From positions 124,001-188,000 of the forward strand of contig NZ_JADQDC010000002.1 of assembly GCF_015694345.1 (NCBI RefSeq): 64,000 nt of DNA, in the 5' to 3' direction. Of the stretch, positions 945 through 22,132 are shown in pieces (position 1 is the first letter of the stretch; every line of letters begins with the position of its first letter). Both the position numbers and the translations under genes were made by a program. The stretch comes from Novosphingobium jiangmenense. Its GTDB lineage: Bacteria > Pseudomonadota > Alphaproteobacteria > Sphingomonadales > Sphingomonadaceae. The notes under the pieces are model-generated. The model did no database searches. It saw nothing but the letters and a program-made list of their open reading frames with translations, and was not told the DNA's origin.

Positions 945-1046
945 CGCCCGGGCCAGCATACCCTTACCGGCAAGACCCTTGCCCGACGTGGCGCGCCATT
1001 GGCGTGGCCGCTCCCTACATTACAGATTCAACAGGAAAATCCGCCC

Positions 1047-3782
1047 ATGTTCGGCTCAATCGCCAAGGCCCTCTTCGGTTCGTCCAACGACCGTTACGTC
1101 AAGTCGCTCGACAAGATCGTTCGCCAGATCGCGGCATTCGAACCCCATGTTCAGGCCCTTTCGGACGAGGAACTGGCAGCGCAGACGCCGAAGTTCCGGC
1201 AGATGCTGGCCGATGGCAAGACGCTCGACGACATCCTGCCTGAAGCCTTCGCCACGGTTCGTGAAGCCTCGATCCGCACGCTGGGCCTGCGTCACTTCGA
1301 TGTGCAGATGATCGGCGGTATCGTGCTCCACCGCGGCGAGATTGCCGAAATGCGCACGGGCGAAGGCAAGACCCTTGTTGCGACGCTGGCGGTCTATCTC
1401 AATGCGCTCGAAAGCAAGGGCGTTCACGTCGTGACCGTGAACGACTACCTCGCCCGCCGCGACGCCGAGACGATGGGCGTGCTTTACAAGTTCCTCGGGC
1501 TGACCGTGGGCGTGATCGTGCCGAACCTCAACGAGGAGCAGCGCCGCGAGGCCTACAACTCGGACATCACTTACGCGACCAACAACGAGCTTGGCTTCGA
1601 CTATCTGCGCGACAACATGAAGCATGAACGGACGCAGATGGTGCACCGCCCGTTCAACTACGCGATCGTCGACGAAGTGGACTCGATCCTGATCGACGAG
1701 GCGCGCACGCCGCTGATCATCTCCGGGCCGACGGACGACAAGAGCGACCTGTACATCTCGGTCGACGCCATCGTGAAGCAGATCCAGCCCGATCTCTATG
1801 AAGCGGACGAGAAGACCAAGAACATCACGCTGACCGAAGACGGCGTGGAATGGGTCGAGCGCGCATTCGAGGAAGCGGGGCTGCTGGTCGGCTCGAACCT
1901 CTATGACGTCGAGAACACGATGGTGGTCCACCACCTCGACCAGGCGCTCAAGGCGAACGTCATGTTCAAGCGGGACATCGACTACATCGTCAAGGACGAC
2001 AAGGTCGTGATCATCGACGAGTTCACCGGCCGCATGATGGACGGTCGGCGCTGGTCGAATGGCCTGCACCAGGCTGTCGAGGCCAAGGAAGGCGTGCGGA
2101 TCGAGCCCGAGAACCAGACCATGGCCTCGATCACGTTCCAGAACTACTTCCGCATGTATCCGAAGATTTCGGGCATGACCGGCACGGCAGCGACGGAAGC
2201 GCCCGAGTTCTTCGACATCTACAAGATGAACGTGGTCTCGATCCCGACCAACGTGCCGGTGCAGCGCATCGACGACGAGGACGAGTTCTACAAGAACACG
2301 ATGGACAAGTTCGGCGCCATCGCCAAGCTGATCCGCGACAAGTACGAGAACGGGCAGCCGGTGCTGGTCGGCACGGTTTCCATCGAGAAGTCCGAGTTGC
2401 TTTCCGAATTCCTCCAGAAGGAAGGCGTGAAGCACAACGTGCTCAACGCCCGCTTCCACGAGATGGAAGCGCACATCGTGGCACAGGCGGGCCGCCTTGG
2501 CGCGGTGACGATCGCCACCAACATGGCGGGTCGCGGCACCGACATCCAGCTTGGCGGCAACATCGAGTTCCGCATCGAGGACGAGTTGCGCGATCTGCCC
2601 GAGGGGCCGGAGCGTGATGCCGGGATCGCCCGGATCAAGGCCGAAGTGGCCGAGGAAAAGGCCAAGGTGCTTGCTGCCGGTGGCCTCTGCGTGATCGGCA
2701 CCGAGCGCCACGAGAGCCGCCGCATCGACAACCAGCTGCGCGGCCGTTCTGGCCGTCAGGGCGACCCGGGCATGAGCAAGTTCTACCTCTGCCTTGAAGA
2801 CGACCTGCTGCGCATCTTCGGCCCGGACACCCTGTTCGCCAAGATGATGAACAACAACCTTGCCGATGGCGAGGCGATCGGTTCGAAGTGGCTGTCGAAG
2901 GCCATCGAGACCGCGCAGAAGAAGGTCGAGGCGCGCAACTACGACATCCGCAAGCAGGTCGTCGAATACGATGACGTGATGAACGACCAGCGCAAGGTTA
3001 TCTACGAGCAGCGTGCGGACATCATGGATGCCGAGACGGTCGGCGACGTGGTGACCGACATGCGTCACGACACGGTCAACGCGATCGTTGGCGATGCCTG
3101 CCCTCCGGGGTCTTATCCCGAACAGTGGGATGTCGAGAGCCTGAGGGCGCGCGTGCGCGACGTCCTGGGTCTCGAAGTTCCGCTCGAGGAGTGGATGCAG
3201 GAAGAAGCGATCGAGCCGGAGACGATCGAGGAGCGCATCCAGACGCTGGCCGATGAGCACATGGATCGCAAGATCACCGAGATCGACCCGACCGCTTGGC
3301 GCAGCCTCGAAAAGTCCATCCTGCTCGAACGGCTCGACCATCACTGGAAGGAACACCTCGCCACGCTCGACGCGCTGCGCCAGGTCGTGTTCCTGCGCGC
3401 CTATGCGCAGAAGACGCCGATCAACGAGTACAAGCAGGAAGCCTTCGGCCTGTTCGAGAAGATGCTCGATGCGATCCGCGAAGACGTGACGCGCATCCTG
3501 ACGACCAGCGAGATCCGTCTGCGGCCGGCTGACGAATTTCAGCTGCCGGAACTGCCGGACTTCCTGACCAGCCACATCGACCCGTTCACCGGCGAGAACG
3601 ACGCGGCGCCGCTGGCGCCCGCGCCGTCGTTCTTCGGCGCGCTGCCGCCGCAGGCTGGGGGTGCACTGACAGCGGGTGCTGCGGGTACCGATCCCTTTGC
3701 CGGACAGGGAATCAGCCGCAACGCGCCGTGCCCGTGTGGCTCCGGGCAGAAGTACAAACATTGCCACGGTGTTGCTGCGTAA
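1047..3782 (+). CDS. secA: SecA, preprotein translocase ATPase
   Basis: The product has 911 residues, a normal length for proteobacterial SecA, the motor that drives unfolded preproteins through SecYEG. Visible landmarks are the Walker A segment MRTGEGKT near residue 105, the DEVD Walker B box near 210 followed by [15 protein letters not shown], the second motor domain with [20 protein letters not shown], and a C-terminal zinc/SecB-binding tail [16 protein letters not shown] (three Cys and one His). An in-frame extension to 999 exists, but the ATG at 1047 follows an AGGA element and matches the usual [13 protein letters not shown]-terminus. A strong terminator follows at 3799. Confidence 0.98.
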
Positions 3783-3968: not shown

Positions 3969-5738
3969 ATGCAGATGATTTCCAGGTTTTCGGGGCGGAG
4001 CGGGCTGCTTTCTGGTGCAGCATGCCTGACGATTCTCGTGCTCGCTTCGACATCCGCGCCTGCCTTGGCTCAGGTCGTACCGAATGGCACTGTCGCTCCA
4101 CCTTCGCGCGATGAACTGCGCGGGCTGACCGGTCAGGCGCCGACAACCGCGCCGCGACTTTCAATCAAGGGCGAAATCGAACGTTCGCCCTGTCCGCTCG
4201 ATGATGCGCAATATGCCGACATCAAGGTCAACCTGAGCGAAGTGACCTTCAACAACCTCAAGGAAATCGCGCCCGAAGAACTGGCCAGCACGTGGAAGCC
4301 GTTGGTCGGCACGCCCCAGCCGATCTCGATGCTGTGCGAAATCCGTGATGCTGCAGGTACTATGCTGCGCAACAAGGGCTATCTTGCTGCGGTCCAGGTG
4401 CCGACCCAGAAGATCGAGGATGGCAAGGTCCGCATGGAAGTAATCTATGCGCGCATCGCCGCCGTGCGTGCCCGGGGCGAAACGCGGGGGGCGGAGAAGA
4501 AGCTTCAGCAGTATCTCGGCGAACTCACCGGGGACGAGGTATTCAACCAGAAGCGGGCGGAGCGCTATCTTCTGCTGGCGCGTGACCTGCCCGGCTACAA
4601 CGTCCAGCTGACCCTGAAGCCGGCCGGGACCGGCGCGGGCGATCTCGTCGCCGAGGTGAGCGTGCTGCGCGAGCCCTACGCGGTGGATTTCACCGTCCAG
4701 AACCTCTCCTCCAAGGCGACGGGGCGGTTTGGCGGGCAGTTGCGCGCGCAGGCGTTCGGCCTGACCGGGATGGGCGACGTGACCACCCTGTCCTACTATG
4801 CCACTTCGGATTTCTCCGAGCAGCACATCCTGCAGGGGAGCCATGAGTTCCGACCCGGATCGCAGGGGCTAGTTGTCGGTGGCCAGCTCACCTACGCCTG
4901 GACCAAGCCCGATGTGGCAGGGCTTCCCGCGAACGTGTCGCTCGATGCCCGGACGCTCTATGCCAGCCTCTATGCGCGCTATCCGCTGGAGCGGTCGCTT
5001 GCCCGCAACATCTGGCTGGGTGGCGGCTTCGATCTCGTCAATCAGGACGTCGACCTGATCGCCCCGCTGACGCGCGACAAGATCCGCGTGGCGTGGGCTC
5101 GTGTCGATCTCGACGCGGTGGATACCGCCCATGCCAGCCCGAGATGGCGGATGTCCTCGGCGCTGGAGGTACGGCAGGGCCTGGCAATCTTCGGCGCCAC
5201 GCGTCCCTGCGCAGGTGCGGCATGTGCTACCGCGGTTCCGGCGAGCCGGGCCGACGCCTCACCCACTGCCACCGTGATCCGCTGGCAAGGGGAATACGAG
5301 CGGGCGATCGGACGTGTGTCGTTCCTGCTTGCGCCGCGCGCGCAGTATGCCTTCAAGCCACTGTTCAGCTTCGAGGAGTTCTCGGCGGGCAACTTCACCG
5401 TTGGCCGCGGCTACGATCCGGGCGAACTGATCGGGGATGACGCCATCGGGACTTCGGCCGAATTGCGCGGGCCGCGCCTGCCATTTGGCAGCAGCCGCAG
5501 CGTCCGCATCCAGCCTTTCGTGTTCGGCGACGTGGCCTGGGTCTGGAACAAGGGCGTGTCCGGTTCGGAACGCCTGACTTCGGCAGGCGGCGGCATCCGC
5601 TCCGAAATCGGCAGCAGGTTCCGCCTCGATGCGACGCTTGCTGTCCCGCTCGAAAAGGTCGGCCTGCAGGCAAGCCGCTCGAAAGCCCGTTTTCTCGTGA
5701 CACTGACCACGCGACTGCTGCCGTGGAGGAACTTCTGA
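3969..5738 (+). CDS. TpsB: ShlB/FhaC-family outer-membrane transporter of a two-partner secretion system
   Basis: The product has 589 residues with a signal peptide (hydrophobic LLSGAACLTILVLAS, cleavage near ALAQ). Two POTRA-like segments (about 70-215) are followed by a transmembrane beta-barrel (about 235-589). The barrel carries the conserved plug/lid motif as GRGYDPGELIGDD near residue 478, and the chain ends in an aromatic residue (RNF), as expected for a BAM substrate. Family members secrete a partner TpsA exoprotein across the outer membrane without ATP. The partner is the adjacent gene: the TGA of this gene shares one base with the ATG at 5738, so the two are translationally coupled. 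First gene of a three-gene operon. The 140-base leader upstream shows no promoter I can assign. Confidence 0.9.
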   Translation: MQMISRFSGRSGLLSGAACLTILVLASTSAPALAQVVPNGTVAPPSRDELRGLTGQAPTTAPRLSIKGEIERSPCPLDDAQYADIKVNLSEVTFNNLKEIAPEELASTWKPLVGTPQPISMLCEIRDAAGTMLRNKGYLAAVQVPTQKIEDGKVRMEVIYARIAAVRARGETRGAEKKLQQYLGELTGDEVFNQKRAERYLLLARDLPGYNVQLTLKPAGTGAGDLVAEVSVLREPYAVDFTVQNLSSKATGRFGGQLRAQAFGLTGMGDVTTLSYYATSDFSEQHILQGSHEFRPGSQGLVVGGQLTYAWTKPDVAGLPANVSLDARTLYASLYARYPLERSLARNIWLGGGFDLVNQDVDLIAPLTRDKIRVAWARVDLDAVDTAHASPRWRMSSALEVRQGLAIFGATRPCAGAACATAVPASRADASPTATVIRWQGEYERAIGRVSFLLAPRAQYAFKPLFSFEEFSAGNFTVGRGYDPGELIGDDAIGTSAELRGPRLPFGSSRSVRIQPFVFGDVAWVWNKGVSGSERLTSAGGGIRSEIGSRFRLDATLAVPLEKVGLQASRSKARFLVTLTTRLLPWRNF

Positions 5739-8700
5739 TGCGCTCGATCCCACTCGCTACCCGCAAGCAGCTGCTGTCGGCGTCCGGCCTTGCTCTGGCC
5801 ACGGCGCTGGTTGCGGCCGGGCCGGCCTTGCGTGCGCAGTCGTTCCAGGCGACGCCGACGTCCACCTTCGGCTCGGTAACGATCAACACCACCCCGACCA
5901 CGACCGCGATCACGGTTTCGAGCCCCAGCGCGGTGATCAACTGGACGCCGACCGATACCGCGACGACCGGCGGCCCGATCATCTTCCAGACTTCGGGCAC
6001 GACCGCGACGTTCACCAACAACCCGGCGGCGAACAGCGACTTCACCGTCCTCAACCGCATCATTCCTTCGGGATCGACGCGCCCGATCCAGTTTGACGGC
6101 ACGGTCGTTTCGCGTCTGCAATCGGCAGCTGGCGGCCAGACTGCGGGGGGTACGGTTTTCTTCTACAGCCCCGGCGGGATCCTGATCGGGGCGTCATCGG
6201 TGTTCGATGTCGGCAATCTGGTGCTGACGACTTCGGACCTCAACTACAACACGACCGACGGCAGCTTCGATACCAGCGGCGCCTACGTGTTCCAGCCCGC
6301 CACCGTTGCGGGTTCGCAGATCGTGGTGAGCGCGGGGGCGCAACTCGGTGCGACGACCGATGGCTCGTACATCGCAATGGTTGCGCCGTCCGTTACCAAC
6401 AACGGCACGATCACCGTAAACGGCTCGGCGGCGCTGGTCGCTGCCGATGCGGCGACGATAACGTTTTCGCCAAGCGGACTGTTCGATATCCAGGTCGATT
6501 CCGGAACCAGCGCGACGGGGACGGTCGCGGTGAACAACGGCACGATCACCGGCCCGGCTGCGTCCGGTTCTTCATTCTTCCATCGCATCTACATGGTCGC
6601 CGTGCCGAAGAACGACGCGATCACGATGGCGATCGGCGCCGGCAGTTCGCTCGGCTTTGACATTGCGGGTGCTGCCGACGTCAGCGGCAACACCATCGTG
6701 CTGTCAGCAGGCAACAACATCATAGGCGGCAGTGCCCAGAATTTTGCGTCGATCGGCGGCGGTTCAGGACTCGCCGAGGTCATCGGCGGCGATGCGGACT
6801 TCACTTCGAACCTCGTGGCTCGCACCACCGGGAATTTCGAGCTCGGCTCCGGGAGCAGCGCCGGCCTGGACTTCGCTTCGAATGTCTTTGCCAGCTCCGC
6901 GCGCGGTAATGCCAGCGTCTTCGCCAATGCCGGTGGACAGGTGAACTTTGCGGCCAATGTCGATTTCCATGCCGACCAAAGCGGGGCAAGCGCAAGTTTT
7001 ACCGCATTCGGCGGGCGGGCGCAGCTCTATGCTACCGATGGCGGCACGATCGCTGTGGCAGGCGATGTACTCCTAAGTGCCAGCGCCTACGGCGCACCGG
7101 CTATCTCGCCAGGTGCGAACGCGGGAGACGCGCAGGCCGGATTTGCCAAGATCCAAGCGAACAACGGGGGGCAGATCAATATTGGCGGCGACGCTCAACT
7201 CGAGGCCATCGGTTTCGGCGGCCAGCCTCAAAGTCCGGGCACTGGTTCTGGCTCCGGAACGGGAGGGACCGCATGGATCCTCTCTACCGGCACAGGCGGA
7301 TCACAAGTCAACATCCTCGGAGCCGCCAATCTCGACGCATCCGGCCGAGGCTATGACGGCAATGGCTGCGTCACGTGTACGCGGGATGGAGGCAGCGCTT
7401 TCGGCGGACTTGCCGCCATCCGGGCGAACGGCGATTCCGCAATAACCATCGGCGGTGCTTCGGTCCTGTCAGCCTACGCAACCGCAGGCCAATCTTCCGC
7501 AGGCGCCGGCGGGAACGCTACCGGCGGTCAAGTCAGCATCTTCACTCTCGATGCTGCTCAGATTTCGATGCAGGGCCTCACCGCCCTTGCCGATGCGAGT
7601 GGCGGCGGTGGCTCCACCAGCGGCGGCTCGGCGCTTGGTGGCCACATCTCCCTGCTGGCCGGGGCGACCTCCGGAACCGGCATCACGATCAACGGAATGG
7701 CCCGTCTCGAGGCTTCTGCCTTGGGCAGCAGCGGCACCGGATCGGCGGGTATTTCGGGATCCGTCAATGGCGGCTCGATCAATCTTCTGGCCGACACCAC
7801 TGACATCACCATCAACGGCTTGCTCAATGCAACGGCGGCGGCGTCCGGCTCGTTCGGGACAGGAGCAACCCAGGCTGCTACCGGCGGTTTCATATCCGTG
7901 GAGGCTCGCAACGGCGGCGTCCTGACGGGTACCGATGGCATTTTGCTGACGGCAAATGCGGTCGGCTCTCCTGCCAGCGGAACAACCCCTGCAGGTGCGG
8001 CGACCGGTGGAACGGTGGACGCATTCGCGAATGGTGGCACCATCCAGACCACTGACCTGTTCATGACCGCCAACGGCAACGGCGGTCCTCAATTCGGCTC
8101 AGCTGCTGCGGGCGCCGGTACCGGCGGCTTGGCGCGGCTGCGTGTCGCTCCTGCAGGTCAGCTGTCAGCTACCGGAGGTATCTCGGTAGCTGCCACCGGG
8201 CGTGGTGGAGATGCCACCGACGGCACCGGCAACGCTGGCAACGGCACGGGCGGTAACGCAGTTATCCAGATGAGCGGCGGAGCCCTCTCGGCAGGAGGCG
8301 CCTTCAGCCTTGTTGCCGAAGGCTACGGCGGCGGTGGTGTGACCGCGGGTTCCGGACAGGGCGGCACGGTGAATGCTGCGATCACCGACGCTTCCTTCAC
8401 GATCAATGGCATATCCTATATCGGCGCAATCGGATCGGGCGGGACCAGCAGCAACTTCTCATCCCCGGGAAGTGCGGGTGCAGCGACGGGCGGGGCGATT
8501 TCGTTCAACGCAACGCGCAGCACGGTGCATCTCAGCCAGACCGGGAACGTCACGTTTGAAGCCACCGGCTATGCGGGTGACGGGCAGACGGCGGCGAATG
8601 GCGAGGGTGGCAGCATAAGCCTGGCCGCTGGCAGCTCGACTGTGGATTCCACCTCGGGCATCAATCTTTTCTCGGAAGGCGTTGGCAGCAACGGCTTCTT

Positions 8701-11700
8701 TGGCGGCAGTGGTGGCAACGGCCTTGGCGGAGGCGTCTCGGTCACTGCCGATGCTGCGTTGACGGCTCCGACCGCGATTTCGACTTCGACAATCTCGATC
8801 AGCACTGTCGGACGCGGTGGCGCAGGCGCCTTCGCTTCGGCGATTGGCGGCGTCGGTGGCAGTGGCGGTATTGGTCAGGGCGGCACGATAACTCTTAATG
8901 CTGCTGTCGATGGCGGTACCATCTCTGTCGGCGACTTGAACGCGAACGCCTCGGGCGTTGGCGGGTTTGGCGCTTCGGGCACCATGAACACTCCTAATGG
9001 CGATCAAGGCGGCAACGGCGGGGCGGCGACTGGCGGCCTGATCAATGTCAACTCGATCGCGGCATCGGGGGGCAGCGGCAGTGGCGGATACGAACTGGGC
9101 GTCGTTCTGTTCAATGCCGGAGCCATAGGCGGCGCTGGCGGCAGCGGCGGCGAAGGTCCGACTCCGGGCGCAGGTGGCAATGGCGGCGCGGCCAACGGCG
9201 GCACGATCAACATGGCGTTCGACCGTGGCGGCAGCAAACTGACCGTCAGTGATGGGCTGAACGTCTCGGCGGATGCGACAGGCGGCAACAGCGGTGATTG
9301 CGGGATCACCTGCACCGCCGCCGGCGGCAATGCGCAGGGTGGCTCGATCAATTTCGGTTCGGGCGGAGCCACCACCGGCAATTCGGTTTCGATCGTCGGC
9401 GGGCTCAACCTGTCGGCCTTCGCAGTCGGCGGGGGGGCCTACGGCGCTCCAGGTGGAAACGGCACCGGTGGTGTGGCAATCATCCACCTCAATTCCGGAC
9501 TGGCATTGACTGCCGACAGCGTGAGCGTGTCTGCCACTGGCGAAGGCGGGGACCAGTTTACCGCGCTTGCAGGCGGCAATGGAACTGGCGGCAATGCATC
9601 GTTCATTGCCTCGGGCACAAGCTCGGCCACGATTTCCGGTACCATCGGCCTCTACTCGGACGGCACGGGCGGCGATGGCCGCGACGTTGGCGCCAATGGC
9701 GGCACCGGCACCGGCGGCATCAGCCGTCTCTACAGCGATGGCGGTACCGTCTCGGTCACCGGCGGTGCTTCAGTGGAAGCCAGCGGCTTCGGTGGCTTCG
9801 GGTATCTGGACGGCGCCAGCGGAACCGGCGGCGCCGGAACGGGCGGCCAGGCCCTGCTTACGGTGGGCACGCCTGACGCGATTGGCAACAATGGCAGCAT
9901 CACTGTCGGTGGTTTCAGCTTTGTCACTGCCGAAGGTACCGGTGGAGACTCCTTCCGGGGCGGAGTCGGCACTGGCGGCTTTGTCGGCATTTCGGCTCGC
10001 CAGGGGACACTCTCGCTCGACCAGACCTTCGCCACCGCCGATGGCTTCGGGGGCTATGGCCAGTTCGGCGGAGCAGGCGGCGTCGCCCAGGGCGGCGGCA
10101 TAGAAGTTTACGCCAACAGCGCCCTTGAAGGTGCCAGCCTTGTCACGATCAACACTCTGACCGCGGATTCGTCGGCGTTTGGCGGGTTTGGTGGCCTTGC
10201 TGCGACGCCGACCGGCAACGGCGGCGTGGGCGGCGATGCAACGGCAGGTACGATCGCGATCTTCGGCACGGCCGGAAACGGGCGGATGCAGATCGGCTCG
10301 GTCCTGGCCAGCGCGAGCGGCCAGGGCGGTGGCGGCGGCGATGGTCTCGCTGGCGGTTTGGGTGGCAACGGCAACGGCGGCTTCGTCCAGATCGGCACCG
10401 CCAGCGGACTCGATACCGGAACCCTGAATACCGGGTCCGGCACCTACGGCAGCATACTGACGATTGCCTCCGGTGTTGGCGGCGATGGTGGCAGCGGTGA
10501 TGCCTCGACCGGGACAGGCGGTGCAGGCGGCAGTGGCAGGGCCGGCGGTTCGCTGCTGCTTGTGCGGGGCAGTTCGACAACCGTTACCGGAACCGGCAGT
10601 TTCAACGCCCATGCGCAAGGCGGCAACGGCGGCAGTGGTGCGACGGTCGGAGCAGGCGGCGACGCTACTGTCGGCGTGAGCACCAATCCGGCGCAGGCGT
10701 CGGGTGCCGGGCTCGTCGTGACGAGCCGTTTCCAGCAGCCCTCCCAGAGCGGCAGCCTGACGGCAGGTGATCTGAATTTCAGCGCGATCGCCGCTGGCGG
10801 TACAGGATCTGTCGCCGGCGTCGGGACGGTCACTGGCGATGCTGTCGATTTCGAGATGCTGAACAGCAGCTTGAGCGGCACAAACCTGTCGTTCTCGGCC
10901 CTTGCCGATGGCGTAACTGCCGGTGCGCTTCCGGACTACATCGCGCTGACCAATTCGACGGCGAACCTTTCCGGCAGCCTGTCGTTCTCGACACCGAACG
11001 CTTTCTCGCTGCAGCTCGACCAGTCGAACCTGACGGCTGCAAGCGTGGCGATCGACGCCGGAAACTGGGTGCTTCCTGCCACCGCCCCCGCAAGCTACGG
11101 CAGCCTGACCGGGACAAGCTCGGTGAGCCTGTCGTCAGGGCAGGACATCATCGCTTACGCGAACCTTTCCACGCAGGGGACGCTGACGCTTCAGGCGGTC
11201 GGGCGCATCTTCCTCGGCTCGTTGTCCGCGCTGGGGGCAGTGGATGTGACGGCGGGCGGATCGCTGACGCTGGGGGATGTTTCCTCAGGGGATTCGATCG
11301 ACCTGACATCGCAGGCCGTGGCCGCACTTGGCAACATGACGGCCGCCACCTCGATCACGGTCCAGTCGGCCAGCAGCGTCACCACCGGCAACCTTGCGGC
11401 CGGAACGGGGACGCCTTCGGGCGCCAACGGCGATCTCAATTCGATCGGGATCACATCGGGCGGCAATGTCCAGACCGGGACGATCTTTGCCGCATCGGAT
11501 GTGGGGATATCGGCTGCGGGCACCCTGACGACCGGGCTTGTCCGCGCCTACGATACGTTGCTCCTCGCCGGTTCGAGCGCGACGATCGACAGTCTCTCGA
11601 TCGTGAACCGCACCCTGATCGCCAATGCTTCAATGGCGGCCCTTGGGCAGACGCCGGCCGGGTTCGACAAGGAACTGGTGTTCGCAGCGGCTCCAGTGGC

Positions 11701-14077
11701 GACGAACGGTCCCATCCAGATTACCAACGCTTCCGGGTCGGGCAGCCTCACCGCTGCTGCGGGAGGCGCATTGACGACTGGCAACATCGCCGTTTCCAAC
11801 TCCCTGCGACTCTCGGCAGGCGGAAGCGCAACTCTGGGGCAACTCACGGCAGGCTCGGGCACACCGACGGCCGGCGGAGCGGGGCTGATCTCGATCGCAT
11901 CGTCGGGCAATGTCAGCACCGGCAACCTGACCTCCAGCGGCGACGTCCGCGTTGCCTCAGGCGGTGGCCTGAGCACCGGGACGGTGGTCGGCTACGACGT
12001 CCTGCTCGGCTCGGTCGGGGACCTTTCGGTCACGAGCATGAACGTGGTCAACCGGGTGCTGATCGCCAACAGTTCGATGCAGGCGCTGGGCCAGACGGCC
12101 AACGGGTTCGACAAGGAACTCGTATTTGCCGCGACGCCGATGGCGCTGACCGGCGCGGTGACGATTTCCAACAACTCCACCGTCGGCACCTTGCGCATTG
12201 CTGCGGGGACCACCGTCACGACGGCCAACGTGTTTGCCGCTGGCCGTATCGGCGTGACAGGCAATGGCGCGATGAACTTCGGTTCGCTGCAGTCGCAGAG
12301 CGACCGGATCGAAGTGATTTCGCGCAACGGGACCGTTACGGCCAGCGCGCTGCTTTCAAGCTCGGACATTCTGGCAAGCGGTGCGGCTGGACTGACGGTC
12401 GGTACTGTCAGGGGCCGCGATCTCGTGCTGCTGTCGAGCGGAAACATCTCGGTACAGACCGCGCTGTCGGGAGCAGTGTTCGATCCGCAGACCAACCAGA
12501 TCACCAATGCCGTCGGCAGAATGCTGATGGCGAACTCGACGATGCTGCCGGTTACCGGCGCCTTGCCGGGAAGCATCAACTATGCTGGCCTGTTCGCGGC
12601 GACGCCGATCAAGACGGACGGCAACATCAATGTCGGCAACGTGGCGGTGGCCGGGCAGATCGTCGGCGCTACTGCCGGGTCGTTCACCGGGGCGGGGATG
12701 GCCGGGTTCAGCCGGATCGAAGTGCTGGCCGATGGCCTCGTGACTGTAGGCCGCCGCTGGGGCGGGCCGCAGGTGCGGATCGTCTCGGGTGACATTGCCA
12801 TCATCGACAACGGCACCGCGACAGGCCCGACCGGACAGCCGATCCTTTCGGGCATCCGCACCAGCGAGACCGGGTTTGTCGATCTCATCTCGACCTCGAC
12901 CGGCACGGCGCTGATCGGTGACGGGCTGACCGGCTCCGGCTATGCCCTGAGCAACGCCGAGATCGGCCTGATCTCCACCAGCGAACTGACCATCGCCGCG
13001 GTTGATCAGCCGAACAACGCCACCGACATGCTGATTGGCAATCTTTCGCTGACCGCGGGCGGAGCAATCGGTTCTTCCAACCTCGCCGGCACGACGGGCC
13101 GGATCATCTTCGCCTCGGGCAACCTGCAGACGCAGACCCCCGGCGGCGCGATCCGGGTGACCGGGGCGATCAATGGCACCGGCTTCGGGCAAGGCAACGT
13201 GATCGAGTTCACGACCGGACGGTTCGAACTTGACGCGGCGACCGGGTCGATCAATCTGACTTCGGCTAGCCAGTCGGGCGCCACGGCGCCTCTCGGCGGG
13301 ACGCTTGAGATCAATGCGGCCAACATCCATGTTGCGGCCGGCAGCATCCTCGACAAGCTGGCCGCCGATCCGTTCTATACCGGACGGATTGCCGAGCTGA
13401 ATGCCCCTGCGGCGGTCCAGCGCCCGGAAGGCGTCATCCGCGCGCTGGGCCTCGACCTTTACCCGACCGGTACGCTCTACATCCAGAACACCGGTACCGT
13501 GCTCAACTCTGCCGGTTTCCTTGCCGATGCCGATTTCACGGACGTGACGGCTCCGACCAACGCCACTCCTGGTTCGATCTCCATCGTGGTCAACGGCGCG
13601 TTCCAGACGCCGACCGGCATCGTTTCAGGCGTGGCTGCACACGATCTTGTCGTGAATGCTCCGGATGCCGACTTCACGCCGTACACCGCAGACAGCCAGA
13701 TCAACGGCTGCCTGTTCACGGCAACGGCCTGTTCATCCGCAATGGAAGGGCCCGATACCATCGGCGCCATTTCCGGGCAGATCGAGATCATCTCGAACGA
13801 GACGCTCGGCAGCACGCCGACCTTTACCGAGAGCCCGGCCGCGCCGACATCGGATGCGGAGAGCGATGATCCGGCGCAGGAAGAGCAGCAACAACAGCAA
13901 CAGGCGAGCGAAGGCGAGGAGGCTGCTTCCAGCCCGATCGCGCCGCCGCCCCAGCTGATCGACAGCAGGCCTCTCGAACCGCAATCGCAAGTCGAGCAGC
14001 CGGTGGCAGGCAGCGGCAATCCCGCCCTGATCGGATCGGTGGTTAACGAGAACAGCGCGGAAGGAGATGACCAGTGA
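5738..14077 (+). CDS. TpsA: giant Gly-rich filamentous-hemagglutinin-like exoprotein
   Basis: The product has about 2,779 residues. The start at 5738 is chosen because GGAGGA at 5725-5730 sits 7 bases before it and it overlaps the transporter stop; a GTG at 5723 is also in frame. Features in order: signal peptide (ending near LRAQ); a TPS secretion domain (about 30-280) with YSPGGILIGASS in the place of the NPNGI motif; a long beta-helix-like region (about 300-1,660) made of Gly-rich segments of 35-45 residues such as GGNGTGGNA; three related modules near residues 1,953, 2,100 and 2,258 (IANxSMxALGQT...FDKELVFAA); and an acidic, poly-Gln C-terminal tail. Cysteines are few. Likely a surface or released adhesin; no enzymatic domain is recognised. 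Confidence 0.88.
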   Translation: MRSIPLATRKQLLSASGLALATALVAAGPALRAQSFQATPTSTFGSVTINTTPTTTAITVSSPSAVINWTPTDTATTGGPIIFQTSGTTATFTNNPAANSDFTVLNRIIPSGSTRPIQFDGTVVSRLQSAAGGQTAGGTVFFYSPGGILIGASSVFDVGNLVLTTSDLNYNTTDGSFDTSGAYVFQPATVAGSQIVVSAGAQLGATTDGSYIAMVAPSVTNNGTITVNGSAALVAADAATITFSPSGLFDIQVDSGTSATGTVAVNNGTITGPAASGSSFFHRIYMVAVPKNDAITMAIGAGSSLGFDIAGAADVSGNTIVLSAGNNIIGGSAQNFASIGGGSGLAEVIGGDADFTSNLVARTTGNFELGSGSSAGLDFASNVFASSARGNASVFANAGGQVNFAANVDFHADQSGASASFTAFGGRAQLYATDGGTIAVAGDVLLSASAYGAPAISPGANAGDAQAGFAKIQANNGGQINIGGDAQLEAIGFGGQPQSPGTGSGSGTGGTAWILSTGTGGSQVNILGAANLDASGRGYDGNGCVTCTRDGGSAFGGLAAIRANGDSAITIGGASVLSAYATAGQSSAGAGGNATGGQVSIFTLDAAQISMQGLTALADASGGGGSTSGGSALGGHISLLAGATSGTGITINGMARLEASALGSSGTGSAGISGSVNGGSINLLADTTDITINGLLNATAAASGSFGTGATQAATGGFISVEARNGGVLTGTDGILLTANAVGSPASGTTPAGAATGGTVDAFANGGTIQTTDLFMTANGNGGPQFGSAAAGAGTGGLARLRVAPAGQLSATGGISVAATGRGGDATDGTGNAGNGTGGNAVIQMSGGALSAGGAFSLVAEGYGGGGVTAGSGQGGTVNAAITDASFTINGISYIGAIGSGGTSSNFSSPGSAGAATGGAISFNATRSTVHLSQTGNVTFEATGYAGDGQTAANGEGGSISLAAGSSTVDSTSGINLFSEGVGSNGFFGGSGGNGLGGGVSVTADAALTAPTAISTSTISISTVGRGGAGAFASAIGGVGGSGGIGQGGTITLNAAVDGGTISVGDLNANASGVGGFGASGTMNTPNGDQGGNGGAATGGLINVNSIAASGGSGSGGYELGVVLFNAGAIGGAGGSGGEGPTPGAGGNGGAANGGTINMAFDRGGSKLTVSDGLNVSADATGGNSGDCGITCTAAGGNAQGGSINFGSGGATTGNSVSIVGGLNLSAFAVGGGAYGAPGGNGTGGVAIIHLNSGLALTADSVSVSATGEGGDQFTALAGGNGTGGNASFIASGTSSATISGTIGLYSDGTGGDGRDVGANGGTGTGGISRLYSDGGTVSVTGGASVEASGFGGFGYLDGASGTGGAGTGGQALLTVGTPDAIGNNGSITVGGFSFVTAEGTGGDSFRGGVGTGGFVGISARQGTLSLDQTFATADGFGGYGQFGGAGGVAQGGGIEVYANSALEGASLVTINTLTADSSAFGGFGGLAATPTGNGGVGGDATAGTIAIFGTAGNGRMQIGSVLASASGQGGGGGDGLAGGLGGNGNGGFVQIGTASGLDTGTLNTGSGTYGSILTIASGVGGDGGSGDASTGTGGAGGSGRAGGSLLLVRGSSTTVTGTGSFNAHAQGGNGGSGATVGAGGDATVGVSTNPAQASGAGLVVTSRFQQPSQSGSLTAGDLNFSAIAAGGTGSVAGVGTVTGDAVDFEMLNSSLSGTNLSFSALADGVTAGALPDYIALTNSTANLSGSLSFSTPNAFSLQLDQSNLTAASVAIDAGNWVLPATAPASYGSLTGTSSVSLSSGQDIIAYANLSTQGTLTLQAVGRIFLGSLSALGAVDVTAGGSLTLGDVSSGDSIDLTSQAVAALGNMTAATSITVQSASSVTTGNLAAGTGTPSGANGDLNSIGITSGGNVQTGTIFAASDVGISAAGTLTTGLVRAYDTLLLAGSSATIDSLSIVNRTLIANASMAALGQTPAGFDKELVFAAAPVATNGPIQITNASGSGSLTAAAGGALTTGNIAVSNSLRLSAGGSATLGQLTAGSGTPTAGGAGLISIASSGNVSTGNLTSSGDVRVASGGGLSTGTVVGYDVLLGSVGDLSVTSMNVVNRVLIANSSMQALGQTANGFDKELVFAATPMALTGAVTISNNSTVGTLRIAAGTTVTTANVFAAGRIGVTGNGAMNFGSLQSQSDRIEVISRNGTVTASALLSSSDILASGAAGLTVGTVRGRDLVLLSSGNISVQTALSGAVFDPQTNQITNAVGRMLMANSTMLPVTGALPGSINYAGLFAATPIKTDGNINVGNVAVAGQIVGATAGSFTGAGMAGFSRIEVLADGLVTVGRRWGGPQVRIVSGDIAIIDNGTATGPTGQPILSGIRTSETGFVDLISTSTGTALIGDGLTGSGYALSNAEIGLISTSELTIAAVDQPNNATDMLIGNLSLTAGGAIGSSNLAGTTGRIIFASGNLQTQTPGGAIRVTGAINGTGFGQGNVIEFTTGRFELDAATGSINLTSASQSGATAPLGGTLEINAANIHVAAGSILDKLAADPFYTGRIAELNAPAAVQRPEGVIRALGLDLYPTGTLYIQNTGTVLNSAGFLADADFTDVTAPTNATPGSISIVVNGAFQTPTGIVSGVAAHDLVVNAPDADFTPYTADSQINGCLFTATACSSAMEGPDTIGAISGQIEIISNETLGSTPTFTESPAAPTSDAESDDPAQEEQQQQQQASEGEEAASSPIAPPPQLIDSRPLEPQSQVEQPVAGSGNPALIGSVVNENSAEGDDQ

Positions 14078-17000
14078 ACGCGCGCATGAAGACACTCCGC
14101 AACGGTTCGATGATCGCAGCGCTGCTGGCATCGACCGTCGCTCCGGCGCTTGCCGCCGAGGCACGGCAACCGCTCTCCATCCGCAACTCGTTCCGCGTCG
14201 GGACCTCTGGCGTGACCTGCACCGCCCAGAACGCGCCGCTGGACAAGCGCCTGGGGGGCATTTTCGACCGCAGCTATCGCCTAAGCTGCCGCGATGCGGC
14301 GGGAGCGGTGGGTAGCCTCATTGCGGTCCGCCGCGATGTGGCAATGGGTGGCGAACCGACGGGTTTGCCGGGCGTCACCTTGGCGTGTGGTGCCGAAGGA
14401 TCGGTGTCGATCGAGACGCTTGGACGGGTGACGGCAGTCAATTGCCGGGACCAGAGCGCAAATGTTGAATACAAGCGCTATGCCGTGAAGCGCGGCGGCA
14501 CGACCTACTTCGTCGAGGGGTTGGCGGGCTACGACCCGGCATTGCGCCTCGCGCTGGCCAGCGTGGTAAACGATGCGCCTGTGGCCGGCGAAATCCGCGT
14601 TGCGACGACCGAGGTGAGCGATCCGGCGGCCTTCGCGCGCGTGCAGGCGGGGCAGCTTGATCGGCTTGGTGCGCGCGATGAGGGGTACTTGCGCAACAAC
14701 GGCGGGCGCTTTGCCGAATCCTCTGAGTTCTTCGAAGCGCTGGCAAACCGGGACCGGGCGTCGGGCGGAACAGGGCTTGCCGAAGCTCTGGCCAACCAGG
14801 GCCTGCAACAGAGCAACCTTGGCAACTTCACGGCAGCCGATCGCCTGCTGACGCAGGCTGCGGCAGCAATGTCGCGCGGGGATGGCGTGACGCAGCGGCT
14901 GATCCGCAACTATCGCGCGATCAACCGGCTGAACCAGCGCAAGCCGGCGGCGGCCTTGAAGGAGCTGGCCAACCCGGTGAACGCGATTGGCGACTCGTTT
15001 GACCGTGGCAGCCTTCAGGCAGGCCTGATCAACATGCCGCTGGCGGAGCAGATCAACCGCGAGAGTTCAGCGTTGAAGCGTCTGGGCGCAGTTGATCCCG
15101 GCCTGTCGGACACCGAACGTGCCGAAATCCTCGACGCTCAGGCCGACGCTTTGAAAGCGACGGCAGCTCGCCTTCAGGGGCGCTTCGATCAGGCCGTGGC
15201 CGGCTTCGAAGGCGCGAGCCGGAGGCTGGAAGCAGTCCGTGGCGGTCGCGTTGCTTCCGCGGGCTGGCTGCGGTCCGAAATCCAGATCGAACTGGCCCTG
15301 CTGGCCGAGGCGCAAGGGCGGAAGGCAGACGCCGGTGCCGCGTTCGACCGTGCCATCGCGCTGATCGGTGCTTCGTTCCCGCAATCGCCCGCCCTGCTGG
15401 CAACACAGGCGCGCAAGGCGGCGTGGCTGGGCCGGTCCGGCGACGAAGCAGGGGCGCTCGCCCTTTATGGCAAGGTCGTCGAGGACAGCCTGGCCGTGCC
15501 AGATGCCGGTACGACCCTGCGCGATCTGCTCGGCCCCTACTTCGGACTGCTCGCCAAGCAGTCCGGCGCAGATGCGGCCAAGGCGACGTTCGCTGCGTCA
15601 CAGGTCCTGCAGCGGCCGGGCGTGGCGCAGACGCAGGCCGTGCTTGCCCGCCAGATGTCGGAGGGCAATGACGAGGCTGCGGCGCTGTTCCGCCTGTCGC
15701 TGGCCCGGACCCGCGACATCGCGCGCACCGAAGCGCTGGTCGAGCAGTTGTCCGCAGTTGCTTCACCCGATCCCAAGCAGGCTGCGGCCTTGCAATCGGC
15801 ACAGGACAATCTGGCTTCGCTGCGCCGCGACCAGACCGCGCTGGTCAGCAAGCTCGCGGCATTCCCGCGCTACAACGTGCTGGCGCCGCGCAGCGTGGAA
15901 CTGGCGGAACTGCAATCGGCGCTGAAGAGCGGGGAGTCCTATTACAAGCTGATGCTTGTGGGCGACCGCGTCTATGGCCTGTTTGCCACCGCGAGCGATG
16001 CCCGCGTCGTCGATCTTGGCATAACCCCTGCCGAAATGGCGAAGCAGGTGCAGGAGATCCGCGATACGATCGTGAAGGTCGAGAACGGGCAGCAGGTCAA
16101 CTATCCGTTCGATCTCGACAAGTCGCGCGCGCTTTACAAGACGCTGTTCGGCCCGGTCGAGGACATGCTGCCGGCAACCCGGCATCTGATCTTCGAGCCG
16201 GACGGTGCGATGCTGCAGTTGCCACCGACTGTGCTGGTCACCGGAGACAAAGGCATTGCCGCCTACAAGAAGCGGATGGAAAGCCCGGATGGCGATCCGT
16301 TCGACTTTACCGGGGTGGAGTGGCTGGGGCGCGGCCGCGAAGTGTCGATCGCGGTCAGTCCGCGCGGCTTCCTCGACATCCGCAAGCTGGCAGCCTCAGG
16401 CGCGCCGCGGAACTACCTGGGGCTTGGCCACAATGCCAAGCCCACCGCCCGCCCGATGGCTGCCGTTGCGGACGAGTGCGATTGGCCGCTGGCGACCTGG
16501 CAGAACCCGATCTCGGCGGACGAGCTGTTCTTCGCGCAGAAGAAGCTGGCTCTGGGCGGGAGTGCGGTGAAGACCGACGCCCAGTTCAGCGACAGCGCGC
16601 TGTTGAGCGAGAGCGACCTCGATCAGTACCGGGTGCTGCACTTTGCCACCCACGGTCTCGTCACCGCGCCGCGCGCCGATTGTCCGGCACGTCCGGCGCT
16701 GGTCACGAGCTTCGGGGACATGGGGTCGGACGGATTGCTGAGCTTCCGCGAGATTTTCGACCTCAAGCTCAACGCCGATCTCGTGATCCTTTCCGCCTGC
16801 GACACGGCGGGGATGGCGACCGTGGCAGCAAGCCGCGAGGCGGGGGTGACCACGGGCGGCAACTATGCCCTCGACGGGCTGGTGCGTGCTTTCGTCGGCG
16901 CGGGCGCGCGCTCGGTCATTGCCAGCCACTGGCCGGTTCCTGACGATTTCGACGCAACAAAGAGGCTGATCGGCGGGGTGATCGATTCCCGCCCCGGACA

Positions 17001-17157
17001 GGAGCTCGCCAATGCGCTGGAGGGCGCGCAGGAGAACCTGATGGACGATCCCAATACGTCGCATCCGTTCTACTGGGCGGCGTTCATCATCGTTGGCGAC
17101 GGAGCCAAGCCGCTTGTCGCCGGGAAGGCCGCAATGACCAGCCAGGCTTCCCGGTAA
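14074..17157 (+). CDS. Exported TPR protein with C-terminal CHAT (caspase-like) protease domain
   Basis: The product has 1,027 residues. The GTG start overlaps the TpsA stop as GTGA, with AAGGAG at 14061-14066, so translation is coupled. A signal peptide (LLASTVAPALAAEA) places it in the periplasm or outside. The region from about 30 to 190 is unrecognised but holds four cysteines. Next come Ala/Leu-rich helical repeats of TPR type (about 220-620), then a CHAT domain (about 640-1,010) with the catalytic pair intact: His860 in HFATHG and Cys909 in LSACDTAG. CHAT enzymes are clan-CD cysteine proteases. The substrate is unknown, but the operon makes the adjacent giant exoprotein the first candidate. 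Last gene of the TPS operon. Confidence 0.9.
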   Translation: MNARMKTLRNGSMIAALLASTVAPALAAEARQPLSIRNSFRVGTSGVTCTAQNAPLDKRLGGIFDRSYRLSCRDAAGAVGSLIAVRRDVAMGGEPTGLPGVTLACGAEGSVSIETLGRVTAVNCRDQSANVEYKRYAVKRGGTTYFVEGLAGYDPALRLALASVVNDAPVAGEIRVATTEVSDPAAFARVQAGQLDRLGARDEGYLRNNGGRFAESSEFFEALANRDRASGGTGLAEALANQGLQQSNLGNFTAADRLLTQAAAAMSRGDGVTQRLIRNYRAINRLNQRKPAAALKELANPVNAIGDSFDRGSLQAGLINMPLAEQINRESSALKRLGAVDPGLSDTERAEILDAQADALKATAARLQGRFDQAVAGFEGASRRLEAVRGGRVASAGWLRSEIQIELALLAEAQGRKADAGAAFDRAIALIGASFPQSPALLATQARKAAWLGRSGDEAGALALYGKVVEDSLAVPDAGTTLRDLLGPYFGLLAKQSGADAAKATFAASQVLQRPGVAQTQAVLARQMSEGNDEAAALFRLSLARTRDIARTEALVEQLSAVASPDPKQAAALQSAQDNLASLRRDQTALVSKLAAFPRYNVLAPRSVELAELQSALKSGESYYKLMLVGDRVYGLFATASDARVVDLGITPAEMAKQVQEIRDTIVKVENGQQVNYPFDLDKSRALYKTLFGPVEDMLPATRHLIFEPDGAMLQLPPTVLVTGDKGIAAYKKRMESPDGDPFDFTGVEWLGRGREVSIAVSPRGFLDIRKLAASGAPRNYLGLGHNAKPTARPMAAVADECDWPLATWQNPISADELFFAQKKLALGGSAVKTDAQFSDSALLSESDLDQYRVLHFATHGLVTAPRADCPARPALVTSFGDMGSDGLLSFREIFDLKLNADLVILSACDTAGMATVAASREAGVTTGGNYALDGLVRAFVGAGARSVIASHWPVPDDFDATKRLIGGVIDSRPGQELANALEGAQENLMDDPNTSHPFYWAAFIIVGDGAKPLVAGKAAMTSQASR

Positions 17158-19907: not shown

Positions 19908-20687
19908 TCAGACCATGAATTGCTCGGCGAAGATGCGGTCTTCGAGGCTCTGGCCACGGTCGAACATCAGGGTCAGGCGGTGCTCCGGCCAGGCCTTTAC
20001 GCGCACTTCGCGCACGTCGCGGACTTCCTTCTGGTCGGCGACCACGAGGACGGGGCGCTTTACCGATTCGAGCGCCTTGAACACGATCTCGTAGGTGTCG
20101 GGCAGAATCGCCCCACGCCAGCGCCGCGGCCGGAAGGGGCTGATCGGGGTAAGCGCGAGCATGTTGGACGACAGCGGCAGGATCGGGCCGTTCGCGGAGA
20201 GGTTGTAGGCGGTCGATCCGGCGGGGGTTGCCACCAGCACGCCGTCGCAAGCGAGTTCGGGCATGCGCACCTTGCCGTTGACGCTGACCTCGAGCTTCGC
20301 CGTCTGGCGGGTTTCGCGCAGGATGGAGACTTCGTTGATCGCGCAGACCGAGTGTTCCTCGCCGGTGTTGGTCACCGCCGTCATCCGCAGTGGCGAAACC
20401 GAGATCTGCGTCGCCTTGGCAAGCCGCTCCTCGATGCCGCGGCTTGAGCGATACTTGTTCATCAGGAAGCCGACGGTGCCGAGATTGAGGCCGAAGGCAG
20501 GGACCACATGGTCGATATCGAGCATGGTGTGCAGCGTCTGCAGCATGAAGCCATCGCCGCCAATGACCACGGCGGCGTCAGCTTTCTCGAGTGCAACCCA
20601 CTCGCGGCTTTTCAACAGCGTGTCATAGGCGTCCTGCGCACGCTCGCTGGGCGACGCCAGCAGGGCCAGGCGGGTGAAATCCGGCAT
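19908..20687 (-). CDS. nadK: NAD kinase
   Basis: The product has 259 residues, short as in alphaproteobacterial NadK, which phosphorylates NAD+ to NADP+ in the cytoplasm. Diagnostic motifs are VVIGGDGFML (GGDG, about residues 43-46), the NEVSI segment (about 118), and the VATPAGSTAYNLSANGPI loop (normally TPTGSTAY). The last residues run EDRIFAEQFMV. The ATG at 20687 is backed by the conserved N-terminus MPDFTRLALLASPSE. It is divergent from the GGDEF/EAL gene, with about 165 bases between the two starts. Confidence 0.95.
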   Translation of the reverse strand: MPDFTRLALLASPSERAQDAYDTLLKSREWVALEKADAAVVIGGDGFMLQTLHTMLDIDHVVPAFGLNLGTVGFLMNKYRSSRGIEERLAKATQISVSPLRMTAVTNTGEEHSVCAINEVSILRETRQTAKLEVSVNGKVRMPELACDGVLVATPAGSTAYNLSANGPILPLSSNMLALTPISPFRPRRWRGAILPDTYEIVFKALESVKRPVLVVADQKEVRDVREVRVKAWPEHRLTLMFDRGQSLEDRIFAEQFMV

Positions 20688-20851
20688 CGTTGTTCAGGCC
20701 CCCATCGGACGCGGCAAATCGCTTCGCTCCGGAGATATTGGGCAGACCGCAGTGGCGCAATGCACAAAAGCATAGCAGCGGCTGTCGAGCCGACGCGGGT
20801 GAGCCGATACAGGGAACGCTTTGGCAAGGTTCGCGTGCTAGGCGGAAGAGG

Positions 20852-22132
20852 ATGCCCCACCGTTTGACCATGCCGGAAGCCGATCTTGGCCGGGATAGCC
20901 TGACGGGTCTTCCGGGCATGGCAGCGGCAACATCATGGCTGGAGCGCCACGAGCCGGGCTTCATCCACGCCATGCTGGTCGGACTGCACCGGCTGAGTTC
21001 GGTCAATCTCGCTTACGGGCAGGCGGGAGGCGACGTGGCGCTGGCGGAGATCGGGCGGCGGATCGCCGATTTTGCGGTGGAAGAGCTTGGCCCCGATGCG
21101 CTTGTCGCGCGGGTCGGCGGCGGGGAGTTCCTGATTGCCAGCAGTGGTTCGATCAGCCGCGAACGCTGGCAGTGGCTGGCCGAAGCGCTGACGCGTCGGA
21201 TTTCGCGCGCCCTGACGGTGCGGGGCGAGGTGCTGCATCTCGTGCCGCGCACTGCGCTGCTGCGCGGCGTGCCGGACGAGGCCGGGGCGGCGATCATCGA
21301 CAGGCTGGACCAGGCGCTCGGCACTGCGCAGCAGCAGGTGGGTCGGCGGATACTCTGGGCGGATGGTTCGCATCGAGCGCGGGGGCGCAGCGCGGCAAGG
21401 CTTGAAGCCGATCTGATCGGGGCGATGGCGCGTGACGAGATCGAGATCGTGTTCCAACCGCAGTATCGGGTTGCCGACGGAGTGCTGGTCGGCGTCGAAG
21501 CACTGGCGCGCTGGAACCATGCACAGCTTGGACGCATCGGCGCTGAGACCCTGTTCTCCATTGCCGAGCGCGGGGATCATGTGGCGCAACTCTCGCGCCA
21601 TATTGCGCGCAAGGCGCTATCGCTGGCGAAGGATTGGGCCGATCTGTCGCTATCCTTGAACGTTACAGCTCAGGATCTTGCGAGCGATTCCTTTGCGAGC
21701 GAGTTCCGCGAACTGCTGGACGAGATCGGGTTTGCGCCAGACCGGCTGACCCTGGAGGTTACCGAACACGCCCTTGTCGGAGACTTCGGGCGATCTGCAG
21801 CAGCACTGGCCCTGCTGGCTTCAGCGGGCGTGCGCATCGCGCTCGACGATTTCGGCACGGGCTATGCAAACTTCCGCACGCTGAAGGCGCTGCCGCTCGA
21901 TACGATCAAGCTCGACGCTTCGATGATCCGCGACGTGGACAGCGATCCGCGTGACCGGGCGATCCTGACGGCCATCGTGGCGATGGCGCAGGCCCTGGGG
22001 TTGAAGATCGTGTGCGAGGGGGTGGAGCGGGAAAGCCAGCTTGCCGTCCTGCAGGCGGAAGGCTGCGATACGTTTCAGGGCTTTCTCCGATCCGGGCCGA
22101 TCAGCGCGGCAGGGATCGCAGCGCTTCTCTAA
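20852..22132 (+). CDS. GGDEF/EAL protein: probable c-di-GMP phosphodiesterase with degenerate cyclase domain
   Basis: The product has 426 residues from the ATG at 20852 (GGAAGAGG just upstream; an in-frame extension to 20690 looks non-coding). The N-terminal GGDEF-type domain has GGGEF (residues 89-93) instead of GG[DE]EF, and the usual catalytic/metal Asp of the first loop is absent (VNLAYGQAGGD), so cyclase activity is unlikely. The EAL domain looks complete: EALARW (Glu216), LNVTAQDL, EVTEHAL, LDDFGTGYANF, IKLD, CEGVE and FQGFLRSGP. It would hydrolyse c-di-GMP to pGpG. No transmembrane or sensory domain is visible. It is convergent with mfd and overlaps its end by 4 bases. Confidence 0.92.
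   Translation: MPHRLTMPEADLGRDSLTGLPGMAAATSWLERHEPGFIHAMLVGLHRLSSVNLAYGQAGGDVALAEIGRRIADFAVEELGPDALVARVGGGEFLIASSGSISRERWQWLAEALTRRISRALTVRGEVLHLVPRTALLRGVPDEAGAAIIDRLDQALGTAQQQVGRRILWADGSHRARGRSAARLEADLIGAMARDEIEIVFQPQYRVADGVLVGVEALARWNHAQLGRIGAETLFSIAERGDHVAQLSRHIARKALSLAKDWADLSLSLNVTAQDLASDSFASEFRELLDEIGFAPDRLTLEVTEHALVGDFGRSAAALALLASAGVRIALDDFGTGYANFRTLKALPLDTIKLDASMIRDVDSDPRDRAILTAIVAMAQALGLKIVCEGVERESQLAVLQAEGCDTFQGFLRSGPISAAGIAALL

Follow-up and report, generated by a model that had tools for sequence, protein, structure and literature searches.

The window, a 64,000-nucleotide stretch of the Novosphingobium jiangmenense contig NZ_JADQDC010000002.1, carries a two-partner secretion (TPS) operon in which genes for an outer-membrane transporter, TpsB, and a giant exoprotein, TpsA, are followed by the gene for a TPR-CHAT protein. 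All three genes are open throughout and, as the original prediction had claimed, their stops and starts overlap: the TpsB stop and the TpsA ATG share one base (TGATG), with GGAGG 8 nt upstream, and the CHAT gene begins at a GTG inside a 4-nt overlap with the TpsA stop (GTGA), AAGGAG lying 7 nt before it. The giant frame had been drawn from further upstream, and it is indeed open to GTG 5723; because of the ribosome-binding site and the TGATG junction, however, the likely start is ATG 5738, which gives a protein of 2,779 residues. A fixed stoichiometry of the products had also been proposed, and this goes too far, since the overlapping junctions suggest coupling of translation only and relatives show other gene orders; the adhesin role given to TpsA is likewise no more than putative. 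In a Pfam scan both TpsB domains, the POTRA_2 domain and the ShlB barrel, score above cut-off, as in a type Vb TpsB; a signal peptide is predicted for TpsB, and Sec export is predicted from sequence and models for TpsB, TpsA and the CHAT protein alike.

Among CHAT proteins of known function, the most familiar act in cytoplasmic immunity and cell death. The CHAT domain of the window protein is recognized by Pfam with 206.7 bits, accompanied only by a TPR match below cut-off, and the His860/Cys909 dyad that had been described as intact lies exactly at these positions and is invariant in the readable aligned relatives (62/62, 42/42 and 15/15 in three alignments). The AlphaFold2 model (pLDDT 80.3, pTM 0.78) has a caspase/separase-like fold with TPR repeats, so that the protein is predicted to be a Csx29/separase-like protease with a TPR superhelix; we refer to it as a putative peptidase. 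The best match of its TPR profile in the PDB is kinesin light chain (KLC; E 2.4e-20), while a PDB search by sequence with the single CHAT protein gave no significant match and profiles matched through the TPRs only. Export, which had likewise been proposed, agrees with the predicted signal peptide in the window and with a lipobox seen by eye in 13 of 20 distant loci.

The TPS domain of the window TpsA matches PF05860 slightly below the cut-off (31.1 bits, E 3e-7, cut-off 33.5), and the same domain lies above it in the relatives L247 (64.1 bits) and L235 (75.6 bits). The last 330 residues of TpsA were modeled with AlphaFold2 (mean pLDDT 80.4), and they are predicted to form a confident beta-rich part to local residue ~215, with pLDDT >90 over most of the first 210 residues, followed by ~114 disordered residues; a Cys pair sits at the border and would close the folded part. 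This pair resembles the cysteine anchors of HMW1 and CdrA, and by analogy it would hold the exoprotein's end at the pore.

Table 1. Coordinates of the operon and of its features in the window.
Feature	Positions	Strand	Basis
TpsB, TPS outer-membrane transporter, 589 aa	3969..5738	+	PF03865 (ShlB) 53.6 bits, PF08479 (POTRA_2) 36.6 bits
TpsA, giant exoprotein, 2,779 aa from ATG 5738	5738..14077	+	Shine-Dalgarno sequence GGAGG 5725-5729, TGATG junction
TPS-domain segment GGTVFFYSPGGILIG of TpsA (NPNG-region variant)	6146..6190	+	Inside the PF05860 match
TpsA Cys pair, Cys2658-x6-Cys2665, end of folded part	13709..13732	+	Relatives, model border
TpsA predicted disordered C-terminal tail, ~114 residues	13733..14074	+	AlphaFold2 pLDDT mostly 43-65 after local residue ~220
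TpsA C-terminal tag VEQPVAGSGNPALIG, residues 2752-2766	13991..14035	+	Tail comparisons, profile
TPR-CHAT protein, 1,027 aa, predicted signal peptide, GTG start	14074..17157	+	Pfam PF12770; AlphaFold2 model
N-terminal beta domain of the CHAT protein, four conserved Cys (49, 72, 105, 124)	14179..14523	+	Alignments, model
TPR superhelix of the CHAT protein, residues ~184-600	14623..15873	+	Model; kinesin-light-chain-like by profile
CHAT caspase-fold domain, residues 683-1009	16120..17100	+	PF12770; Csx29/separase-like fold by model
His860 codon; Cys909 codon	16651; 16798	+	CHAT domain dyad

The association of these genes was surveyed in 199 genomes of the window's family, which were searched with the window CHAT protein (E ≤1e-20) and for ShlB, with matches in 77 and 120 genomes, respectively. 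TpsB counts in the family refer to the matches listed, down to about E 1e-11, with the window's own TpsB added separately, and two CHATs that were each listed as two pieces were merged before counting. Among 87 CHAT places at E ≤1e-59, 58 have a TpsB within 25 kb, always on the CHAT's strand (23 upstream, 35 downstream). The closest CHATs (E ≤1e-180) occupy 78 places in 67 genomes; a listed TpsB lies near 56 of them, and reading 20 of the 22 remaining neighborhoods revealed TpsB and/or a giant TpsA beside CHAT in 18, while the last two (G147, G020) have a tagged giant open reading frame (ORF) within 30 kb on the same strand. In total, 76 of the 78 close CHATs are TPS-linked, the others being one unlinked gene (G127, L090) and one at a contig edge (G176, L098). 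The possibility that the linkage is sporadic was thereby rejected, and the idea of TpsB, TpsA and CHAT as a fixed module has gained support.

Beyond the family, a sample of 337 genomes of the class had a CHAT profile match in 57 and ShlB in 98; of 77 CHAT places, 22 have a same-strand TpsB within 25 kb, one has a TpsB on the opposite strand, and 54 have none nearby among the matches listed. Eighteen of these 22 linked places lie outside the window's family, in ten families, and two more families are represented by L244, with a giant ORF beside CHAT at a contig end, and L256, with the order TpsB-TpsA-CHAT; TPS-linked CHAT thus recurs in 12 other alphaproteobacterial families. At the level of the phylum, 82 of 349 genomes contain a CHAT-profile match, and among the 32 genomes checked for ShlB, only the alphaproteobacterium G761 has a TpsB near a full-length match, so the TPS-linked form looks restricted to Alphaproteobacteria in this sample.

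When gene order is set against a tree of 92 CHAT proteins, 89 rows show same-strand TPS genes beside CHAT, which is not a rate, because the rows from outside the family were mostly picked for having TpsB. Orders with the TPS genes upstream, with or without a cyclase gene, are found in the other families and in much of the window's family, whereas one clade (support 93) is CHAT-first and includes a subclade without the cyclase; the window operon belongs to the TpsB-TpsA-CHAT group and has no CHASE2-cyclase. A frozen accident of gene order is rejected, since the order has been rearranged and yet the genes have stayed together. The module is often larger: 38 loci have a CHASE2-class III cyclase and a small exported protein together with CHAT, and they include both gene orders as well as other families.

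Three CHAT matches and two ShlB matches are present in the window's own genome. A second operon on contig C30 (L006:7454-16358) comprises CHAT, a CHASE2-class III cyclase, two small exported proteins, TpsB and a giant TpsA, and because the second ShlB lies in it, both ShlB genes of the genome are CHAT-linked. Its TpsA is cut short by the contig end; contig C14 holds a piece that shares its repeats and ends in a tagged C-terminus (L253:9076-13233), with a cysS-like gene after it. The third CHAT, on contig C3 (L007:7174-10131), is a protein of 985 aa with strong TPRs, and the surrounding 20 kb contain no TPS gene.

The earlier idea of a tie between CHAT and the exoprotein is sharpened by a C-terminal tag on CHAT-linked TpsAs, newly found here, with the consensus [IV][DE][DE]P[VI][TAS][GS]xG[ND]xxL[WIM]. 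It sits in the disordered tail, mostly 18-47 residues from the C-terminus, and its G-N/D is nearly invariant. In a first set, the block is visible by eye in 21 of 21 tails. From 14 tails of one locus set a score matrix was made and applied to 94 tails of other loci and to 1,880 shuffled tails: 89 of the 94 score above the best shuffle, which no giant ORF does among 18 from TPS loci that lack CHAT (best 8.6 vs 12.0). These controls comprise L133|10 and the C-terminally complete giant ORFs in 40 stretches around unlinked TpsBs, many of which have no giant ORF at all; three CHAT ORFs caught by the tail filter (L225|4, L228|45, L231|44) were left out of all counts. Five tails were missed: in L061 and L178 a long Gly-rich extension comes after the tag, L085 and L165 look frameshifted, and L133|10 is the TpsA of a second TPS without its own CHAT. 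Altogether the tag is present in 112 of 114 complete CHAT-linked tails, a number that includes duplicate strains (L040-L099 and L120-L199 share strains), the other two being L085 and L165. After removal of tails alike (at least 40% identity) just upstream of the tag, 50 remain, in which the tag is the best conserved stretch and its flanks are poorly conserved, apart from a weaker patch of conservation 9-22 residues ahead of the tag. The Cys pair is present in 87 of 92 tagged TpsAs, while any C-x4-16-C in the last 250 residues occurs in 7 of the 18 controls. A natural control is offered by L133:13289-21501, an untagged second giant ORF that directly follows CHAT and has its own TpsB in the opposite order.

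Run against the entire genome that contains the window, a 29-residue profile of the tag gives two significant matches, each in a CHAT-linked TpsA, and the next match has E 0.37. Across the 199 family genomes it finds 74 places in 65 genomes, 71 of which are in ORFs of at least 1,000 aa; 64 lie within 30 kb of a same-strand CHAT, and most of the others are on short contigs. The matches in small ORFs concern proteins of 109, 261 and 387 aa, the last being an internal match in an unrelated protein (L254:1459-2610, EDPVCGSGN, E 6e-4), which we take to be PhzF-like by motif, and was set aside as chance. The tag occurs in 63 of 67 genomes with a close CHAT vs 2 of 132 without one, and in none of 47 genomes that have a TpsB (among the matches listed) without a close CHAT; the corresponding Fisher value of 2.8e-44 overstates independence, because the genomes are related.

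Given these findings, the interpretation that we hold at slightly better than even odds is that the operon is a conserved TPS system in which the TPR-CHAT protein is a dedicated, probably periplasmic protease that captures the tail tag of the exoprotein and cuts the tail. TpsA would thread out through TpsB with its N-terminus first, and its disulfide-closed end may stall at the pore, leaving a periplasmic tail like that described for CdrA. The TPR groove of CHAT could bind the GNxxL[W] part of the tag and so place the tail in the active site, where one cleavage, either within the tail or where it joins the Cys loop (hook region), would mature the exoprotein and set its fate, namely whether it is kept on the cell or shed. 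At loci with the CHASE2-cyclase, docking may also be reported to the cytoplasm. A single residue follows the tag in L228 and L234, which represent two distant families; for this reason docking is the likelier role of the tag, and the idea that the cut falls within the tag itself was set back. A broader view, which we regard as a reasonable possibility falling short of an even chance, is that the Gram-negative envelope has acquired a caspase-fold protease as a dedicated reader and cutter of C-terminal tags on giant exoproteins, coupled in many alphaproteobacteria to a CHASE2-cyclase through which the cell would sense the state of its exoprotein.

Several known systems bear comparison with this proposal. 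Csx29 (Craspase, type III-E CRISPR) acts inside the cell with Cas7-11 and RNA, whereas the window CHAT is predicted to be exported and is linked to TpsB and TpsA; its neighbors are TpsB, TpsA and secA (upstream of the operon on the same strand, 999-3782), which is not the setting of Csx29, although the rest of the genome was not searched for CRISPR genes. Separase is eukaryotic, acts in the cytoplasm or nucleus without export and cuts cohesin, and in these respects it is unlike the window CHAT. CtpA also takes part in the processing of Bordetella filamentous hemagglutinin (FHA). According to a TPS review, FHA is released by SphB1, a subtilisin autotransporter (PMC5422565); SphB1 is likewise a protease that matures or releases a TpsA, but its gene is located outside the fha locus, and CHAT is encoded inside the operon. 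LapG acting on LapA had been offered as an analogy for CHAT, and it is apt, since LapG, a periplasmic cysteine protease of Pseudomonas aeruginosa, is described as cutting the periplasmic C-terminal tail of the TPS exoprotein CdrA and thereby releasing it (PMC5422565, PMC6156197). The layout of tail and periplasmic cysteine protease would be alike in both, but CHAT has a caspase fold (PF12770), is encoded inside the TPS operon, would read a different tag and is not known to be under cyclic di-GMP control; the Pfam scan found no LapG-type (bacterial transglutaminase-like) peptidase domain in the CHAT protein. As for the TPRs, those of KLC, a eukaryotic cargo receptor for aromatic-acidic peptides, are reported to bind short peptides (PMC6214655), and the likeness of CHAT to them by profile makes binding of the TpsA tag by CHAT conceivable.

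Some observations weigh against this proposal. Four weaker CHATs, in G012, G031, G050 and G106 (E 1e-33 to 1e-38), have a TpsB 3.4 kb downstream, and the tag profile has no match in G012, G050 and G106, while in G031 it matches at a different locus only; nor does it match in G038 and G103, which have mid-range TPS-linked CHATs. The only TpsA end read among G038, G103, G012, G050 and G106 is that of G103 (L225), which ends in a divergent GNEGLI form. In distant families, a GNxxLW-like end is found in 15 of 21 TpsAs vs 3.6% of shuffles and 1 of 18 controls, in a hand-picked set with a pattern written after looking (L242 was left out, as it has no same-strand TpsA beside CHAT), and the remaining 6 of 21 lack the tag by this pattern. 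The full-form tag therefore belongs to the close CHAT clade. Furthermore, a Gly-rich extension of up to >200 residues follows the tag in L047, L061 and L178, and G127 (L090) keeps CHAT, cyclase and small protein without TPS genes. Finally, the tag could belong to TpsA and TpsB and be merely co-inherited with CHAT: the 199 genomes are related, so their counts are not independent, and no complete genome among those examined has this TpsA clade without CHAT. G018, with a tagged TpsA and no CHAT match, is an assembly that is 85% complete.

Among the rival explanations, one that we judge unlikely, yet the best placed of them, is that CHAT is mainly a sensor, which would bind the tag of a stalled or completed TpsA in the periplasm, cut or contact the small exported protein and the CHASE2 sensor, and in this way control the class III nucleotide cyclase. 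The 38 loci with cyclase and small exported protein speak for it, as does the retention of both with CHAT in G127 after loss of the TPS genes; in addition, the first rank in a Foldseek search with the CHAT model is the anti-sigma factor DdvA (E 1.6e-9, low TM score). It is held at this low level because neither the window operon nor a whole subclade has the cyclase, and yet CHAT, dyad and tag are kept there.

Somewhat less probable still is that the tag serves TpsA and TpsB, as a C-terminal anchor or stop signal of this transporter clade, while CHAT has another part in that envelope process. In favor of this, the tag is inherited together with TpsA and the TpsB clade, the TpsAs of the 18 controls come from other, more distant TpsB types, and the tag lies behind a Cys pair of the kind known from anchors; on the other hand, tags are rarely seen without CHAT, and the simplest role for an exported peptidase next to a disordered, tagged tail is that of reading the tag. 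We give very little credence to a sortase-like transpeptidase, which would cut at the tag, for example after Asn, and attach the exoprotein to an envelope component. The near-invariant G-N/D would suit it, some clan CD enzymes cut after Asx, and in type IX secretion the clan CD cysteine peptidase PorU performs gingipain-type sorting by reading a C-terminal signal of exported cargo. PorU, however, belongs to another secretion system and reads a folded C-terminal domain instead of a short tag, and CHAT has no known transpeptidase activity or acceptor, while the single residue after the tag in L228 and L234 would be a trivial leaving group. That an ordinary CHAT gene happens to adjoin a TPS operon by accident is hardly credible, for although 14 of the 18 CHAT places with E >1e-59 have no nearby TpsB among the matches listed (the other four being those with a TpsB 3.4 kb downstream) and 54 of the 77 class-level places likewise have none, 76 of 78 close homologues are linked, on the same strand or with a tagged TpsA, and the gene junctions overlap.

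If the favored reading, a dedicated protease that captures the tag and cuts the tail, is true, an envelope CHAT with a nameable substrate and a short tag would form a directly testable protease-substrate pair, and it would tell what matures or releases a TpsA exoprotein in a large group of alphaproteobacteria. Searches of open-access papers gave no description of such a pair, which is weak evidence that none exists. The TPS review makes no mention of CHAT in its main text, and it notes that the proteases maturing several TpsA proteins are unidentified (PMC5422565). The tag also makes giant genes annotated as hypothetical recognizable by their tail: in one such operon the exoprotein and the small protein are annotated as "hypothetical", and in another the exoprotein is named a filamentous hemagglutinin N-terminal domain-containing protein. 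In NCBIfam only the cyclase has a match, a single distant one, and TpsB, TpsA, CHAT and the small proteins have none.

A defense system was considered and rejected, since PADLOC matched the window CHAT with JAB alone (E 0.0033) and had no match to the paralogous CHAT; the paralogous cyclase matches PADLOC Pycsar cyclase models, as a class III cyclase. The CHAT/TPS module is also found on large plasmids, namely pMSHV of Sphingobium herbicidovorans (L245) and other Sphingobium megaplasmids. On pMSHV a Crp/Fnr gene lies just upstream of CHAT; as a part of the module this regulator was rejected, having no match (E 1e-10) at the other CHAT loci searched, many of which were covered for only 1.5 kb upstream of CHAT.

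Among the transporters themselves, L219 is an orphan TpsB of this clade with neither TpsA nor CHAT beside it, and many ShlB genes of the family have no giant exoprotein (L106, L107, L109, L111, L112, L115, L116, L119), several of these lone genes lying near an ORF of ~780 aa whose C-terminus is EAL-like by eye. The TpsBs of some distant families (L229:11947-13704, L233:7780-9480, L235:8891-10591) seem, again by eye, to begin with a lipobox rather than an ordinary signal peptide. In the window, a gene for a GGDEF-EAL protein (20690-22132, +) is located a few kb downstream of the operon, flanked by an NAD kinase gene (19908-20687, -) and an Mfd-like gene (22129-25623, -).

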